DNA of 64,000 nt, from positions 8,303,180 to 8,367,179 of the forward strand of contig CM067532.1 of NCBI GenBank assembly GCA_034509925.1, in the 5' to 3' direction. This document shows, piece by piece, positions 997 through 55,884 of the stretch. The notes under the pieces were generated by a model that ran no database searches, was not told the origin of the DNA, and saw only the letters and a list, made by a program, of their open reading frames with translations. This stretch comes from Hirudinaria manillensis (lineage: Eukaryota > Annelida > Clitellata > Hirudinida > Hirudinidae). The position numbers were made by a program, and so were the translations under genes. How positions within the stretch are numbered: the first letter of the stretch is position 1; the number at the start of each line of letters is the position of its first letter.

Positions 997-3863
997 TTAT
1001 TTAAAAGATTCCATCTCAAGTCGGTGAACAACTTTGGAGCAAGGTGTTCCAGAGTTTACGTGGATTTTCACATGAGTTTCCAAGTCACTATTCTGTGCAA
1101 ATGTAGATCCACAAACATCACATCTGTATAGTTTCTCACCTGTGTGGGTCCTCATGTGTCTTTTTAAATGACCATTCCGTGCAAATGTAGATCCACAAAC
1201 ATCACATTTGTATGGTTTCTCACCCGTGTGGATCCTCATGTGGCTTTTTAAATGACCACTCTGTGCAAATGTAGATCCACAAACATCACATTTGTATGGT
1301 TTCTCACCTGTGTGGACCCTCACATGTATTTTGAAATCTCCATTCTGTGCAAATGTAGATCCACAAACATCACATTTGTATGGTTTCTCACCCGTGTGAA
1401 CCCTCATATGGCTTTTTAAATGACCATTCTGTGCAAATGTAGATCCACAAACATCACATTTGTATGGTTTCTCACCTGTGTGGACCCTCATGTGGCTTTT
1501 CAAGCCATAGTTGCACGTAAATGTAGAACCCCAAGCACCTCTCTCTTGACATTCTTCAGCCAAAAAAACTTTTTCGAAACTCTTAGCTTTTGACCAGGCT
1601 TTATTAGCATCTTCAGTGGAAGACGTGATAGCAATGATGGGTTCAGAATCAATATTTTCCACGTTTAAAGTTTGGACGTTGAGAACATGTCCAAAGGGAA
1701 AACGTTTTTCGGAGTTGTCAACTTTTGGCTTCTGAATATATGCTGCTTCTGAAACACAAATATTAATTAAAAGGTGTACTAAAATAAGCTTAAAAGTTAT
1801 GAAATGAAATTACTGAATGCCAAATAAATAAAGGAAATACGTAATTGTCAACACCCTATGACACTTAAGGAGGGCAAGAAAAAACGCAGAAAGAAGGTCG
1901 ACCCGGATGAGGCCAAAGATCCGTCTCTTAAGACTGAGGCTGCACTCTAAAGTGCTATTATTTATTGTTGAAGGAGAAATATTTCTCCCATAATAATAAT
2001 TTGTCATAATAAGAATGTATTTCTCAATAACAACAATCCATACTTTTAGTAATCTTTTGAGATTCATCACAGTCTTGATTATAATCTTTTGAATACCATA
2101 CCAGCAGCTCAGTGTCAGCAGCAATGTCCTTTATAGTTCTGTAATAAACCTTGTACCGATACTGAAAAGATTCCAAATTTTGAACTTCAGGAGAATTGGC
2201 ATGGTTGACGTATCTCATCCAATTCGATTGTTGTGGATCATCACCATCAATGTAATGGTGTAGAGAGCCATCAACAAAAATCTGTCCGCATTACAACGCA
2301 AAATAAGCCATAAAAATTACAATATTTGGCAAAAGCGAATGCTTACTTCCCAGCCCATACCAGAAATCTTGGTTATGTCATCAAATACTCTCACCCCAAC
2401 ATAAGGACCAAATATGGTGTCACTTTTTAGTTCTCTACTTGTAAAAATTCCCACAACTGCATTAGGCAAATTGGAACATTTGAGAACGAGTCCGTCCGGT
2501 ATGGTCTTTGCTGCGAACGATTGTGGAATATTCCAACTAAGTGAAACAGGACTTTCTCTGGAAGCAGATGAACATGAATCATTTTGGTAATCATTGTCTC
2601 TAGGTACTCTGAGGTCTTGTGCACTTGGAAGTAACTTATCCTCAGTTAGTGAATCGCTATCTGATGAACGAAGCAAAGAGTGAGGGATTTTAATGGCATA
2701 GTTGAACAATTTTCATACTTTGAAACACTAAATGATTTTAAAACAAACAGTTAAAATGCTAGTGATGCTAAACTAAATGCTATAATTTTTAATATTTCAA
2801 CTTATGTATGAATGGGTTATTTATTAACAGTATCATTGAAACAACAAACATTCTATAACATATAATTGACAACGATTTCACAAAGTTTCACCAGATTCAT
2901 CAGATTCCACTTCACAATAATCTTTTTTGGCCACCATTCTAAATGCATATCTTCGTTCATTGCACTTTTTGTCCTTCTGCAGAGAAAGGTTATCTATAGC
3001 TTTTTCCAGCAATTCAAGACCTTTAATAAAACATGATATATATCAGAATCCAGGTACTGTAAAATTTATTTCAGATGCAAATAGAAATTTCATTGTGACT
3101 AGTTTCTTCACTAACTATTTGGGAAAAACAGTTGCAATTCATTTGCTCCCAATTTATGGTTTTTAAACAGTTCCAGTGCCTTCTTTCTCATTTTGTAATC
3201 TTCTTCCATTGCTTTAAATGCAACTGGTGCTATATTGCATAAATTGTCCCATATTTGCTTGATAAAATCCTTGTTTTTGCAAAGTGGCAAATCTAAATTT
3301 CCCCCGATAAAGTTATCCTAGGAACATTAGTAAAGCAGTTTATATTGCAATTAGCATCAACATAATGCCATGCAAAAGCGAAACGAAATATGTAATGTTT
3401 ACTCCAGCAGGTCTTGCTTTAGTGTAATATGACAATGGTATATCCGTACATAACAGCATCTTTTTCGCTTCTTCTGTTAATTGAGTTGAATCATTCTGAC
3501 CAGTTTTTTGAACAGCTAGTAAAGTCACAAAAGGACATTACTTAAACTTTAATTTCGACATGGAATTCGATAACAAAAAAAATTAACCTTCCTTTTCATG
3601 TAGAGTTATTTTCATAAACTCCGGTAAATCGCACGGCAAATCTAAAAAATCGTAAATATTTTGAATATCAATGACCAGGTTTTATTTTAGCTGAACATCC
3701 TACTTAGCGATTGGCATACGAAGTAGTTCTTCATTTTGTTAAACTTAATCACTTTTTCAAAAATCGGCATTTCGTTCAACTGGTCTTGAGTGAAATATCT
3801 ACTCAGATCGCAACAAGACATGCCCGAACTAAACAAATCGGACTCATCGGACACATCGGCCAT
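997..3863 (-). CDS. PRDM9: PRDM9/Meisetz-like histone methyltransferase with zinc-finger array
   Basis: Eight exons: complement(join(997..1748, 2044..2281, 2347..2660, 2892..3020, 3116..3317, 3403..3515, 3588..3641, 3704..3863)), 653 residues, all phases consistent. Residues about 18-65 resemble the KRAB-like box of PRDM9 (YFTQDQLNEM, then FEKV, KNYF and PEFM). Residues about 198-219 align without gaps with SSXRD (RRYAFR...Y.EV). Residues about 255-395 form a PR/SET domain: FGPYVG, NWMRYVNHA, YYRT and ELLVWY are present, so the tyrosines equivalent to human Y276, Y341 and Y357 are kept. Residues about 455-620 hold one degenerate and five intact C2H2 fingers with TGEKPYKC linkers. Family members trimethylate H3K4 and direct meiotic recombination; that role is inferred here. 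The zinc knuckle after SSXRD and the lone finger before the array in human PRDM9 were not found. The donor at 3116 is the weakest junction. The ATG at 3863 is the first Met of the open frame. Confidence 0.85.
1060..1550 (-). repeat. 84-bp tandem zinc-finger repeat array
   Basis: Within the last PRDM9-like exon, near-identical 84-bp units each encode one 28-residue C2H2 finger. The same backbone word recurs at about 1095, 1179, 1263, 1347 and 1431. Differences between units cluster at helix positions -1, 2, 3 and 6. The N-terminal unit lacks both cysteines (R and W instead), so it should not bind zinc. Confidence 0.9.
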
Positions 3864-12255: not shown

Positions 12256-15106
12256 ATGAAACTGCTGGCTGGCCTCATTTTATTCTCCATGTTCGCCTGG
12301 ATGTTCGGCTCAAATGGAATTCCATCCGTGACGGCAACACCGAGCGTTGAAAAACGTCATCTCAAAACAAGTCAAGTGAAACTAAAGAGGAGAGAAATCA
12401 TTGATTACGTGGATTCTTCCAAGCCAATCCTGTTCGGAGGGAGTTACAACCTCGTCTCCGAGTGGACGGGGAAAAAGGATCCACTAAATTCTGATCAGTC
12501 CTTCGTCTATCGTCACTCAACGGATCTCAAGAATAGGAAAAGAAAGCGTGAAGGCGGCCCCAAATCCGACGGTAAGACAAAAACCGGGAGATCTCCAAAG
12601 AACAAGACGTCTTCGAACAAGCAAAAGGAGAATAAGAAGCACTTGAAAAAAGGAAAAACCTTCGACAACAACTTGAGCGGAAAAGCCAAGAGCGTCGCGT
12701 CGAAGGAGGGGGATTACAGATCGCCTTGGAACTACAATGCCTGGAACGGGGGGGTTTTCAGGAAGGCAGCGAGGTGCGTGGATATTCCAAGTAACATGTC
12801 ACTGTGCAGAGGAGTCGGTTACGATCGCATGAGAGTTCCGAACCTGCTTGATCATGACAGCGAATTAGAGGCAGTGGTTCAATGTGGGTTTGTTTGCTTC
12901 TCCTGAAATTATCAATCGTTTATTTGTATGGCTGTGTTTGTTTGTAAACAACTTTAATTGTTGTTTTTGAGGCGTTTTGTTGTGAAGTCATGCATTTGCT
13001 CCGCTATGGTCTTTATATCTTCCGATTATTATTCCCTGTCAAAATCAAAAAGGTGAAAGTTGAGCGATTCAAATTTTAAGGCGTTTGCACTTTACTCTAG
13101 TAACCAACTTAACAATAGCCTAAACACATTATCCCTAAATCACATTATCATGTGCGTACCTTCCAAACGCCTAACCCAACCATGACCCGTAGGCTTAAGA
13201 GTTGAAAATCTATTATTTGAATTAATGATGTTTAGTGCAGACTCCAACAGTATTAACAAACTAAATAATATATTTTTGACGGCGACGTTGACGACGATGA
13301 TGATAATAGTAATAGTAATAATAAATATTTTAATATATTTTCAGCATCCTACTGGGTTCCTCTGTGGTCGTCTAAATGTCACAGAGACACGAGAATATTC
13401 CTCTGTTCCATGTTTGCACCGGTCTGCATGGAACAGCCCATCTACCCTTGCAAGAGTCTCTGCGAGGCAGTGAAAAACTCGTGCGTCGAACGGATGAACA
13501 AGCACGGCTTTCCATGGCCAGAATTCTTGGAATGCGACCAATTTCCAGACGACACCCAACTCTGCATCGGGATCAGAGATGAGAAAGAACTGGATAGCAG
13601 TGAGTTCGATGAGTATTCTTGTTGTTGCTGTTGTTGTTGTTGTTTTGTCGATGTTGCTTTATGTTGTAAGCGTTTTCCTCCCTCAAAAAATTAGCGAGAA
13701 ATGCGTTACTCTGGGTTACTCTGAGTAATATTACTCTGTGCTTAATTAGCCTTTGCTCTGTAGTGTCAGGTGATTATATTCCCGAGAGGAATGAATTTTA
13801 AATGAAAGCACCGAGAAAGCTATTTATATGCCTTTTGCGAACAATTCAATAGATCCTATTCAATGGGTTCTACAAATTTTTCTTGCAAATTGCTTGCTTT
13901 TGCTCCTCGTTGATTCGAAGTGGCAAAGTCCAGAAGCTATTGTTGGGCATCTTTACGAAAAGGATGAAATGTAACGACGCTCGACCGCGCTTGTTCGACC
14001 CAACAACTCGAATAATTGGCGGATTATTTCGGAGGACAGAGCAATCAAGCACGAAACCCGTTGAGAAGTATTGCTGAGAGGCTGTTCCATGAAAAGGGGG
14101 TTTCAAAGCTCGAGAGTTCACGCGGTGTAAACTGGCTCCTAGACAAACTTCCACGTCGTCGCTGCAAATCCCTTGTAATGGGATTCAAGTTGAAATAATC
14201 AGGGCTAAGAGCTCTGTTTATTTGATTGCAAATCGAACTGACAGCTGTTTATTTTCAATTTGACGGCTCTCCCTCTGCATTAACTGAAATGTACCCAAAT
14301 GCATGGATTCATGCCGCAGCGAGGAGAAATGGAGAGCTTAATGTACACATATTTCGGCACGTTCGGTTTGTTTTCTTACGACCACCATAGCCACGTGCCG
14401 ATGAAAAATCGCTGGCAGAAGTAATCAGAGACAGAAAATGGATTCCACAAGATGTCGTTGGCCGCCTCATTTCTGATAATGACATTTTCACGCTTCAAAT
14501 GACAATTTTTCCATTTTCCAGGCGACAAATGTTCCGTCTGTTCTCCGGCCGATTCGATGGAAAACGTCATTGACAATTTTTGCAACGCGGAATTCGGTGA
14601 GGAATCGCAATTTATTGCACTCGAATCGTCAAATCTTAAGACTCAACCATACAATCGTTTACTAATCCGATAATTGTCATTCAGTGGCTAAGATCACAGT
14701 GGAGCGTTCAGAAGCCGTCAATGGGGATTTGAAGCTCATCTCAAACATCAAAAAGAAGATCTACAAGAAACCACAAGAGAACAGGAGACAATTGGCAATG
14801 GCCAGAGAATGGATGATCCAAGATTACGCCAAATGCGATTGTCCTTTTGCCACTAGTCTACGAGTTCACAAAGGCAGAGAACCACGCTCCACTGACGCCG
14901 CCGAGCAGCAAAAGACGCAGCCAGCAGAGTCAAGAAAGAAGCCTTTCAAGGAAAATCAGTTTCTCGTCATGGGGAGCAGAAAGAAAGGACACAGGTTTGT
15001 CCTGTCCTTCATTCAACCGATCAAACGGGGTCAGTCGGTTCTGAACAAGGCCATGAAGATGCTGACAGCCGATAACAAGAAGATGTGTAGTACGATGAGC
15101 GGCTAA
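12256..15106 (+). CDS. Secreted frizzled-related protein (SFRP1/2/5 type)
   Basis: Four exons: join(12256..12883, 13345..13599, 14522..14596, 14685..15106), 459 residues. A signal peptide (MKLLAGLILFSMFAWMF) is followed by an unusual lysine/arginine-rich stretch of about 130 residues. Then comes a Frizzled cysteine-rich domain with ten cysteines (CVDIPSNMSLC, MRVPNLLDHDSELE, WVPLWSSKCH, FLCSMFAPVC, PIYPCKSLCEAV). After a short CSVC exon the last exon encodes a netrin-like (NTR) domain, including CDCPF. SFRPs are secreted proteins that bind Wnt ligands and modulate Frizzled signalling. The PNLLxHxS and PIYPC signatures fit the SFRP1/2/5 group better than SFRP3/4. A 25-residue polar insert interrupts the NTR domain. 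Splice phases are all 1, typical for extracellular modules. Confidence 0.93.
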
Positions 15107-35776: not shown

Positions 35777-38086
35777 TTACTTGGAATTACTCAGATATTC
35801 CTCCACCTCGATCCTTTTAAATTTCCTTGAGTCGTTGAGTGCAGTCGAACCCCACCTGGAAAATTGAGTGGAAGGTACAGACCAGCTCGTTTGAGCCGAT
35901 TGCTACGAGCGACTTACTTATCCTTGATGTTAACGTCCACGCTGCACTTTTCCACGAGGAACTTCACGGCTTCCAGCTTTCCTTCCGACGCCGCGATGTG
36001 AAGTGGCGTGCGACCGTCGTGATCCACGGCGTTCATGTCGTGATCGGCCAAGTACAAAGTCCTTAAGGCCGTTATGTCGTTGTAATTGGCAGCAAAGATG
36101 GCTTGCATCGTCCTCACTCTCGCATCGGCGTGCGGGGTTCGGATTCTGCTCGACACCTTTGCTTCCTGGTATCTCAGACGTTTCGGATGAGATCTTTCTA
36201 TTTCTAAAACCTTCTCGTTGCTGTGTCCTGAAATCCTACGAAATTTTACCAGAATTTTAAATAATTGTCAAATAGATCAAATTGAAAACAAATCAGTTTG
36301 AGTGGCACCTACTAACTTATCGCTAAAGTAATGAAGGTCCAAACTTTTTGAAAGTTTCTCGCAGAACTGGAGTGCCCTCACACTGATGCCTTCAGAGCCA
36401 AGCAAAGGTGACCACAAAAACAATCCCATGATACCTGGAACAACTGCCATCAGTCCTCCAGAAATGCCAGATGCCCCTGGAATTCCAACTTCTAAGGCAA
36501 ATTCTCCAGAAATTCCACAAGTGAACATGATGGAAACTGCAGCGTCGGTCGATTCCAAGCTCAGTAAGCGCTCTCCGGACGTCGGGCAGATGCCACCGTT
36601 GGCGAGGGTGGCTGCCAACACCGACAGGTCCTCCGAGGTTAGCTGGAGCGATCGCAACTTAATATGCAAATCTACTAATTCGTCCAAATCTGTACCGGCT
36701 GGAAAACAGAGATTGTTGCTAAGGTGGTAGGCATTTGCCCAGATGTGATCGCAAGCTCCTTTCTGATGCTTGTAAAACATTTGATTCAAATCAACATCAC
36801 CATCTCCTGAGAAATGCTTGTACCTGAGTCAAAAAATGAACTTACTAGAAAGCCAATAGTTTATTTGGTTAATTCAATATAATTTTAAAATCAGAAAATC
36901 AACATTTAAATATCCAAAAGCATTTATTTAGCTTAGAGGTATAAGTTCTCCAACTTTTCCAACTCAAAGGATGAACCAAAAATCATAGAAAATGATTAGT
37001 AATAATGCAAGTTAGCCAAACAAGTAATTAGTAAATTGAGTGATCAGTTACATTTGCATAATCTTTTTCAGCTTATCCTGGTAATTAGTTCTGGTGAAGA
37101 GCAGTGATGTTGTGACAAGGACACCAGTATCACTGAGAGGATTATGAGGAATACCTGACTGACTGAGAGTGAGACTCTGCAAAAGCAGTCACAATTTGAT
37201 AAATACCGACACTCACATAGAAATTAATGAACAAATTGAAACTCTATTTCTAAATAAAAATAAATAATTACGCAATAATCAACCTTGTTTCTGTCTTCCC
37301 TTTTAGAGAGAGGTTCATTTGCAACATATTGTTTGATGGTCTGCTCTCCATGCTCCTCAACAGCAAGAGCAAAACTTATGGGATCCGAGCAGGAATGTAA
37401 AACAACAGGGATGTTTGAACATCCGATACTGTGCCTCTGACCATCGACGGTGCAGACTGAAACACTCCACTTGTCGAGTGTTTCAGAGGACAGAACTTTC
37501 GAATAAGATGTAACCTTTATTTTGGAATAAGAAAGTCTGATGCACTGGCATATCCACTATTATGTTGAAGGTTTGCAAAGTTACTTACAGTACCTGAGAT
37601 ATTCTTTAGGCACTTCCAGTAAAGGTCATTGACCAGTGAGACAAGTTCATCAAACTGAGGTACAACCAAATTGTTTGTGAATGTTTTGTAGATCAAAATG
37701 TTGTTGCATTTTAACATGTCCCGGAACTGCTCCAATTTGATCTCAATGTCATCAGGGCTAGCATTATTGATACGCTTGAGATAATTTATTTTTTGTATAA
37801 GTGTATTCAAACGTCGATCGTCGAGGAGAAGACCAGATTGCTTTATCTTCGTAGTGAGGCAAGATAAGGGCAGAACATCACTGCCTCCGCTCAGCTGTCG
37901 AAAAACATCGTCTTCGAGAGTAAAATAGGTAGAACTCTCGGCATTGTCCTGTCTTAGTTCAGCATCTCGATTATAAAGTCTGAATGCGAGCCAATTTGGC
38001 CTTATTCCCGCTTGATGAGCTAGAAGACCGTTGAGGCCCGCCAATGGGAAGGGGCGTCTCGACAATAAATAGGTTACTCTACTCAT
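35777..38086 (-). CDS. Glutaminase-like protein, predicted catalytically dead
   Basis: Six exons: complement(join(35777..35855, 35918..36235, 36317..36823, 37052..37176, 37284..37514, 37589..38086)), 585 residues, phases consistent. Layout follows GLS: arginine-rich N-terminus like a mitochondrial presequence, helical region, serine-beta-lactamase-like glutaminase domain (VSVCTVDGQRHS, AATLANGG, FPAGTD), then C-terminal ankyrin repeats (GRTPLHIAASEGKLEAVKFL). Against human GLS, Y249 and S286 are kept, but K289 is Asp (HSCSD), N335 is Asp (PHNPLSD), E381 is Gln, N388 is Ile, Y414 is His, Y466 falls in a three-residue deletion (CGISGEF), and V484 is Ile. The stretch holding E381 to Y414 aligns without gaps. 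The frame is intact and shows no pseudogene signs. It converges on the septin gene, 165 bp away. GLS normally converts glutamine to glutamate in mitochondria; this protein probably does not. Confidence 0.9.
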
Positions 38087-54984: not shown

Positions 54985-55884
54985 TCACTGATTCATTGAG
55001 CAGTCTCTGTCCAGGTGGCACGATCCTGCATTGGTGAGTAACGAGTTACAATTGCGAGTTACGACGAGAGTTACAATTCTTATCTTCGCTAATTAGCCAA
55101 TAAGAGGGCTAAGATGCTTGACAATTTATAAGGTTTTGTTAAGTTTAAGGTTCAAATGTCACCGCTAAATTGGCGGAAAAAGTTGTACCGAGAGGTCCAA
55201 CCCACCTTTGTCCTCGCAACAGACTCCTCGTGTCACGCAGATTCCTGATCCATTGTCTCCACAAGTTTTTCCTCTGACGAAGCACGGAGTCGGAATGAGA
55301 TTCTCATCGCGGCACGAGCTCGTAATTTCTCGATCAGAGAAGCATCCGTAGTTTTCCAGGCAACACAAGTCCGCAGATACGCAGGTGCCCGTAAAGTGTT
55401 CCCCCGACAGTTCCAGAGTGCACGTAGGGCACTGGAATTTCAATTTTACAATTCAGGATTAAAGTCTTATTGAGTATTAAGTTATTGACGGAATAAGAAT
55501 AACTCGTGGCTTAGGCTCATGCATAATCATTATATAGGTTTATTAATATTTATGGTATAAAATGCATGATGCAATCGTTATGTTTATTTCGTAGCTGGCA
55601 GGTAACATTATAATATTTTTTTTCTTTAAACAAATCTGTAACATTTAGTCAGGGTCATGCAGTCAAGGTCAGTTGATTAATTAATTAGTTAATTAATCGG
55701 TTATTCTCATTGACTGAGTTCACTCGAGACTCCTTACCTTACGAGGTCCACTGGTGAAATACTCGACGAGGGATCTTTTCTTTCCGCCGAGAGGACAATT
55801 CCTTATGAAGCAGGCCTCAAAGGCCACCATGGAAACTGCCATCAGGAACAGAGTGCTATACGAGAAGAGGCTGATCACATGCAT
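54985..55884 (-). CDS. Vasopressin/oxytocin-type (conopressin-like) preprohormone-neurophysin
   Basis: Three exons: complement(join(54985..55025, 55206..55431, 55738..55884)), 137 residues. The start at 55884 is ATG (the frame opens earlier only with GTG). A hydrophobic signal peptide (SLFSYSTLFLMAVSMVAFEA) precedes the nonapeptide CFIRNCPLG, then G and KKR for amidation and cleavage, as in all family members. A 12-residue spacer precedes the neurophysin domain, which has the canonical 14 cysteines: CPTC, GTC, LCC, YGC, SSC, TPC, KTC, GIC, VCC, GSC, RDC. The tiny last exon supplies the final two. Position 4 is Arg, as in conopressin, while position 8 is Leu, as in oxytocin. The peptide would act through a rhodopsin-family GPCR; its physiological role cannot be told. 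Confidence 0.95.

Follow-up and report, generated by a model that had tools for sequence, protein, structure and literature searches.

What is kept, and for what use, when a gene with the complete layout of an animal glutaminase carries an altered catalytic pocket? This question is raised by a locus of the leech Hirudinaria manillensis, contained in a window (the whole stretch of DNA analysed) of 64,000 nucleotides that corresponds to C7:8303180-8367179 of a 148.4 Mb assembly with 23 contigs. The gene occupies positions 38086-35777 of the window, on the minus strand, and comprises six exons and five GT-AG introns. It encodes 585 amino acids from ATG to TAA, with no internal stops. The coordinates, the exon count and the open frame had been given by an earlier interpretation of the same DNA (the sequence-only reading) and are right.

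Exon 1 (38086-37589) contains the ATG start, a presequence-like N-terminus (first 40 residues, 38086-37967) and an EF-hand_14 domain (37915-37658). The glutaminase domain begins in exon 2 (37514-37284), continues through the activation-loop region in exon 3 (37176-37052) and has its second half in exon 4 (36823-36309). Exon 5 (36227-35918) encodes the linker and the ankyrin repeats, which extend over 36096-35789 and run into exon 6 (35855-35777), where the end of the ankyrin domain and the TAA stop codon are placed. By eye, the junction between exons 4 and 5 admits an alternative in-frame choice that affects only a few linker residues.

The spliced protein matches the Pfam family Glutaminase (PF04960) with 236.1 bits, for a cut-off of 27, over 286/286 profile positions. 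EF-hand_14 is matched with 40.8 bits, and ankyrin families are also found. The resulting order (EF-hand_14, glutaminase, ankyrin repeats) is the one that characterizes GLS-type animal glutaminases and is the same as in GLS and GLS2 (KGA-type; 5uqe, 8gwr). The first 40 residues contain 6 K/R and 0 D/E, with a largest helical moment of 0.44, the features by which a mitochondrial presequence was judged. The fold-defining blocks, the presequence-like N-terminus and the ankyrin repeats noticed in the sequence-only reading are all present. The best solved relative by sequence is the kidney-type glutaminase 5uqe_A (E 9.5e-99), which we take to be the human protein, and the glutaminase domain is identical to that of human GLS at 114 of 284 residues (40%).

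The active site was examined in an alignment of the window protein, human GLS, human GLS2, the leech canonical GLS and 80 bacterial homologues, with the numbering of 8gwr_B, which was verified at Y249, S286, K289 and Y466. The human GLS2 row has an Ala at 320 that is absent from the 8szl row and corresponds to the engineered K253A form, as described in the available portion of PMC10912226. The window protein keeps Y249 (37505-37503) and S286 (37394-37392). K289 is replaced by Asp (37385-37383), N335 by Asp (37131-37129), E381 by Gln (36765-36763), N388 by Ile (36744-36742), Y414 by His (36666-36664) and V484 by Ile (36465-36463), and Y466 is deleted together with D467 and F468, the three residues missing between 36511 and 36510 of exon 4. 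The Phe318 of the GLS activation loop aligns to Glu. The HMMER and MAFFT alignments concur at the changed pocket sites, and the seven changes listed in the sequence-only reading are all confirmed. Consequently, the Ser-Lys pair of an active glutaminase (EC 3.5.1.2) is incomplete, with S286 kept and Asp in the place of K289, and the rest of the pocket (Y249, N335, E381, N388, Y414, Y466 and V484) is kept at 1/7 sites, Y249. Among the bacterial homologues, K289, N335, E381, N388 and Y466 are kept in 80/80, Y414 in 79/80 and V484 in 78/80; the patterns used to fetch these sequences select for the regions of Y249 and Y466 and not for the other pocket sites. V484I alone is weak evidence. The remaining changes, judged by this comparison, are not ordinary variation.

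The search of the assembly with PF04960 yielded five exon matches that correspond to three genes, both counts being lower bounds. A canonical GLS, the second gene that the sequence-only reading had proposed to look for, is found at C4:8473044-8473970 (L006) and keeps 9/9 pocket residues. It is identical to the window copy at 106/284 domain residues (37%) and differs from it by this full pocket and by its intron positions. The third gene, L007, is also placed on C4 and is, from its residues, a second non-catalytic paralogue. It keeps 1/9 pocket residues, S286, and carries K289W, N335I, E381A, N388T, Y414Q, V484S and a deletion across Y466, while Y249 aligns to Trp in a stretch of uncertain alignment. 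L007 and the window copy, both predicted to be non-catalytic, have in common the loss of K289 and the deletion of the Y466 segment. On the other hand, L007 has another residue at every substituted pocket site, a bigger deletion, a short modelled linker ahead of the ankyrin repeats and 0 intron positions in common with the window copy. L007 was also considered as a broken gene, given an in-frame stop. This was rejected: the stop lies within a 60-base GT-AG stretch, the removal of this stretch keeps the frame and the domain has there a normal length. The 60-base intron is deduced from the sequence, and the junction before the ankyrin exon of L007 is uncertain.

Whether the pocket was lost PREFERENTIALLY can be assessed from the 51 near-invariant sites, defined over 83 catalytic-type sequences with a threshold of at least 95%. 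At these sites, the window copy keeps 2/9 in the pocket vs 28/42 elsewhere (Fisher one-sided P 0.019), and L007 keeps 1/9 vs 21/42 (Fisher one-sided P 0.034). The sites lost in both non-catalytic copies amount to 7/9 in the pocket vs 11/42 elsewhere (P 0.006). With a threshold of 90%, P becomes 0.031 for the window copy and 0.052 for L007; with sites invariant in all 83 sequences (100%), it becomes 0.044 and 0.136, respectively. Preferential loss of the pocket thus holds for the window copy, with a modest effect. The sites of the lid, the activation loop and the Y466 loop are kept at 9/17 in the window copy and 5/17 in L007, and the scaffold sites outside the pocket and the loops at 19/25 and 16/25. 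Positions that are hydrophobic in at least 95% of the 83 sequences are still hydrophobic at 48/57 in the window copy and 42/57 in L007.

The structure prediction suggested by the sequence-only reading covers exon 4 (36822-36310), one contiguous exon, which is predicted to fold as a glutaminase with a mean pLDDT of 90.6 (77 in the block that bears the deletion), from an alignment otherwise made of 53 bacterial glutaminases, which favours this fold. The best 50 of 257 PDB matches to the model are all glutaminases, with TM-scores to the query of 0.80-0.83. A kept fold, predicted for exon 4 only, lost catalytic residues and an intact gene are together the marks of a pseudoenzyme. The assignment of the window protein as a pseudoenzyme is well supported by the residue comparison and the predicted model. 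The pseudoenzyme with a kept fold proposed in the sequence-only reading is therefore borne out by the intact gene, the loss of the pocket, the predicted fold of exon 4 and the rejection of omega = 1 described below. Given that the catalytic pocket is gone while the fold remains, the two non-catalytic leech copies probably perform a job other than glutamine breakdown.

A pseudogene in early decay would be in line with the long branch of the window copy (2.46 changes per column). However, the 585 codons hold 0 stops or frameshifts, the splice sites are intact and omega = 1 is rejected, so that such decay is highly unlikely. In a pairwise codon model, omega = 1 is rejected in 6/6 fits among the three leech paralogue pairs, with 2 delta lnL of 71.9 (445 codons) and 38.5 (277 codons) for the window copy vs L007. 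Only the rejection of 1 and not the omega value is usable, because dS is saturated in all three pairs and the branch length ran away in 3/6 fits, one of them the fit of the window copy vs L007 over 277 codons; the similarity-based alignment also favours the omega result. Nevertheless, the domains of these two copies are 37.5% identical in a separate pairwise alignment and 33.9% in MAFFT, above the shuffle maximum of 29.5% (n=200). Part of the constraint on the window copy may predate the loss of catalysis. The proposal that selection keeps a non-catalytic role hence stands in part: constraint rather than decay is indicated by the rejection of omega = 1 in saturated paralogue pairs, and the specific roles named with it are not upheld.

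The origin of the duplicates was addressed by phylogeny. One group (100/100) unites the two human proteins with the three leech copies, and within it the window copy and L007 pair at 97/95. This pair and the 23 states common to both copies, and different from the canonical leech and human GLS, suggest a single loss of catalysis before the two copies split. The join may also be false, as the two copies have the longest branches and treekit warns of long branches meeting. When L007 is left out, the window copy joins the human pair (92/60), and when the window copy is left out, L007 joins the leech canonical copy (35/0). The grouping of all three leech copies is not rejected (p-AU 0.48), and the value for the canonical copy with the human proteins is 0.30. 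Lower values are obtained for the window copy with the canonical copy (0.056), L007 with the canonical copy (0.069) and the window copy with the human proteins (0.066). The intron positions common to different leech GLS genes are 0/11 mapped.

The window copy could join the canonical GLS in a filament or a hetero-tetramer and thereby cap or tune the polymer. The layout common to GLS and the presence of a canonical GLS for pairing are consistent with such a partner, and a capping subunit would need just one good face. The lateral, tetramer-tetramer contacts of the filament involve F355, F373, N375, F378, Q379, D412 and Q416, and the phosphate site involves R317, K320, R387, Y394 and K398, as far as the accessible portions of PMC10912226 and PMC10770349 name them. 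Of the residues so named, the window copy keeps 1/7 at the lateral contacts (D412 only), for 4/7 in the leech canonical enzyme. At the phosphate site it matches 1/5 (R317 only, at a position where HMMER and MAFFT differ in gap placement), for 2/5 in the canonical enzyme. By this residue set, the window copy does not resemble a phosphate-activated, filament-forming GLS. Besides the loss of Lys289, Asn335, Glu381, Asn388, Tyr414 and Tyr466, it is the loss of most of these phosphate and filament residues that separates it from animal GLS and GLS2. The dimer-dimer helix 386-399 is identical at 3/14 residues between the window copy and the leech canonical enzyme vs 10/14 between the latter and the human one, and the filament helices at 9/42 vs 17/42. 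The filament partner advanced in the sequence-only reading is consequently unlikely.

In the leech canonical GLS, Arg317 and Lys320 are both replaced by Ser and Lys398 by His. The human GAC variant Lys320Ala is constitutively active, according to the part of PMC10912226 at hand; with Ser at 320, the leech canonical enzyme may, for this reason, not need phosphate.

A glutamine sensor, also advanced for the window copy, would make use of the remaining Y249 and S286. Nevertheless, 7/9 pocket residues are changed or missing, and with E381, N335, N388, Y414 and Y466 all gone, the protein is unlikely to bind glutamine as known glutaminases do; the sensor is extremely improbable and finds no backing in the residues. 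The pocket could otherwise have been rebuilt instead of lost, with S286, His 414 and Asp 289 or Asp 335 forming a site of the Ser-His-Asp type. Both non-catalytic copies still have S286, the window copy does hold D289, D335 and H414, and K289, Y414 and Y466 lie on one plane of the known active pocket in the portion of PMC10770349 consulted. Against this, Y466 is deleted in the window copy, and L007 has Trp 289, Ile 335 and Gln 414, which leaves no common new site, so that new chemistry is very unlikely.

The window gene is probably a pseudo-glutaminase, derived from an old GLS duplicate, that serves as a mitochondrial non-catalytic scaffold or regulator through its flanking domains. This reading is preferred since the N-terminal domain and the ankyrin repeats are the plausible interfaces that remain. 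The mitochondrial GLS gene of animals would have duplicated long ago, and this duplicate would have lost glutamine hydrolysis and been kept for its shape. The protein would enter mitochondria and contact other proteins via its EF-hand-like N-terminal domain and its ankyrin repeats, whereas the glutaminase domain would be a rigid non-catalytic core. The scaffold or regulator might then operate near glutaminase or other matrix proteins.

The domains diverged to different extents. From the comparison of the canonical leech GLS with the human one to that of the window copy with the canonical leech GLS, identity changes from 62.7% to 37.3% in the glutaminase domain, from 32.7% to 31.6% in the N-terminal domain and from 57.9% to 44.7% in the ankyrin domain. 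The drop in identity is larger for the glutaminase domain than for both flanks together, in the window copy (P 0.005) and in L007 (P 0.0009). Compared with the ankyrin domain alone, there is no difference in the window copy (P 0.17), and for L007 P is 0.011. The contrast is partly a floor effect because the N-terminal identity of 31.6% lies fairly close to the shuffle level (mean 22.8%, maximum 38.8%, n=200), with alignment scores well clear of it.

A special case that overlaps with the scaffold reading is a structural role in specialised mitochondria, for example those of sperm. The Drosophila S-LAP sperm aminopeptidases are a published family of duplicated enzymes in which one cluster has lost active-site residues and been retained, with a structural role proposed, as far as the available text of PMC3078892 goes. 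The two fast-evolving non-catalytic leech copies match this pattern, in a comparison of how the proteins would work only. The S-LAPs differ in that they are M17 aminopeptidases with a known sperm location, while the leech copy belongs to the glutaminase family. By this analogy, a sperm-type structural role is conceivable and rather improbable.

Pseudoenzymes are a known kind of protein, and a GLS-family glutaminase in such a state was not found described in titles and the openings of abstracts; subscription papers fall mostly outside this literature, and absence from it is not proof. On glutaminase in leeches and on loss of catalysis, the titles among the matches listed include nothing on GLS paralogues, and no match was found on a catalytically inactive invertebrate paralogue or on glutaminase in a leech genome. 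Papers that link glutaminase with pseudoenzymes treat other subjects, mostly vitamin B6, and those that name an inactive glutaminase all deal with CPS1, as judged by title. An oyster glutaminase study reportedly concerned immunity, and the term 'glutamin' occurs once in the H. manillensis genome paper. Little is understood of what the ankyrin repeats do in GLS. With a canonical copy and two apparently dead ones in the same animal, the leech set shows which parts of the protein persist once catalysis is gone, and it could separate the chemical role of glutaminase from the roles of its fold and ankyrin repeats. Glutaminase is a drug target, with an activity tied to filament assembly in the accessible part of PMC10912226.

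Domain matches place a RagA-type GTPase gene just upstream of the window gene, at about 39.3-40.3 kb on the minus strand. It diverges more than another RagA copy on C7 (7551495-7552780), which scores higher; the two are 67% identical over 99 residues. Both neighbours, RagA and the glutaminase-like gene, are divergent duplicates. Elsewhere in the window, an ORF with a neurohypophysial hormone C-terminal (neurophysin) domain (PF00184, 56 bits) is found at 55168-55452 (minus), a Frizzled-type Fz domain at 13269-13691 (plus) and a C2H2 zinc-finger ORF at 1000-1809 (minus). The mitochondrial contig C23 (15,581 bases, partly N) contains COX1 and tRNA-Gln, in the order COX1-COX2-ATP8-COX3-Q-ND6 (COX2, ATP8, COX3 and ND6 by eye), presumably the annelid order. 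A further COX1 match at C9:3026446-3027786 (G000), in a 9.9 Mb contig, equals the mitochondrial contig in score and number of TGA codons and reflects either an assembly artefact or mitochondrial DNA that was recently inserted into the nuclear genome.
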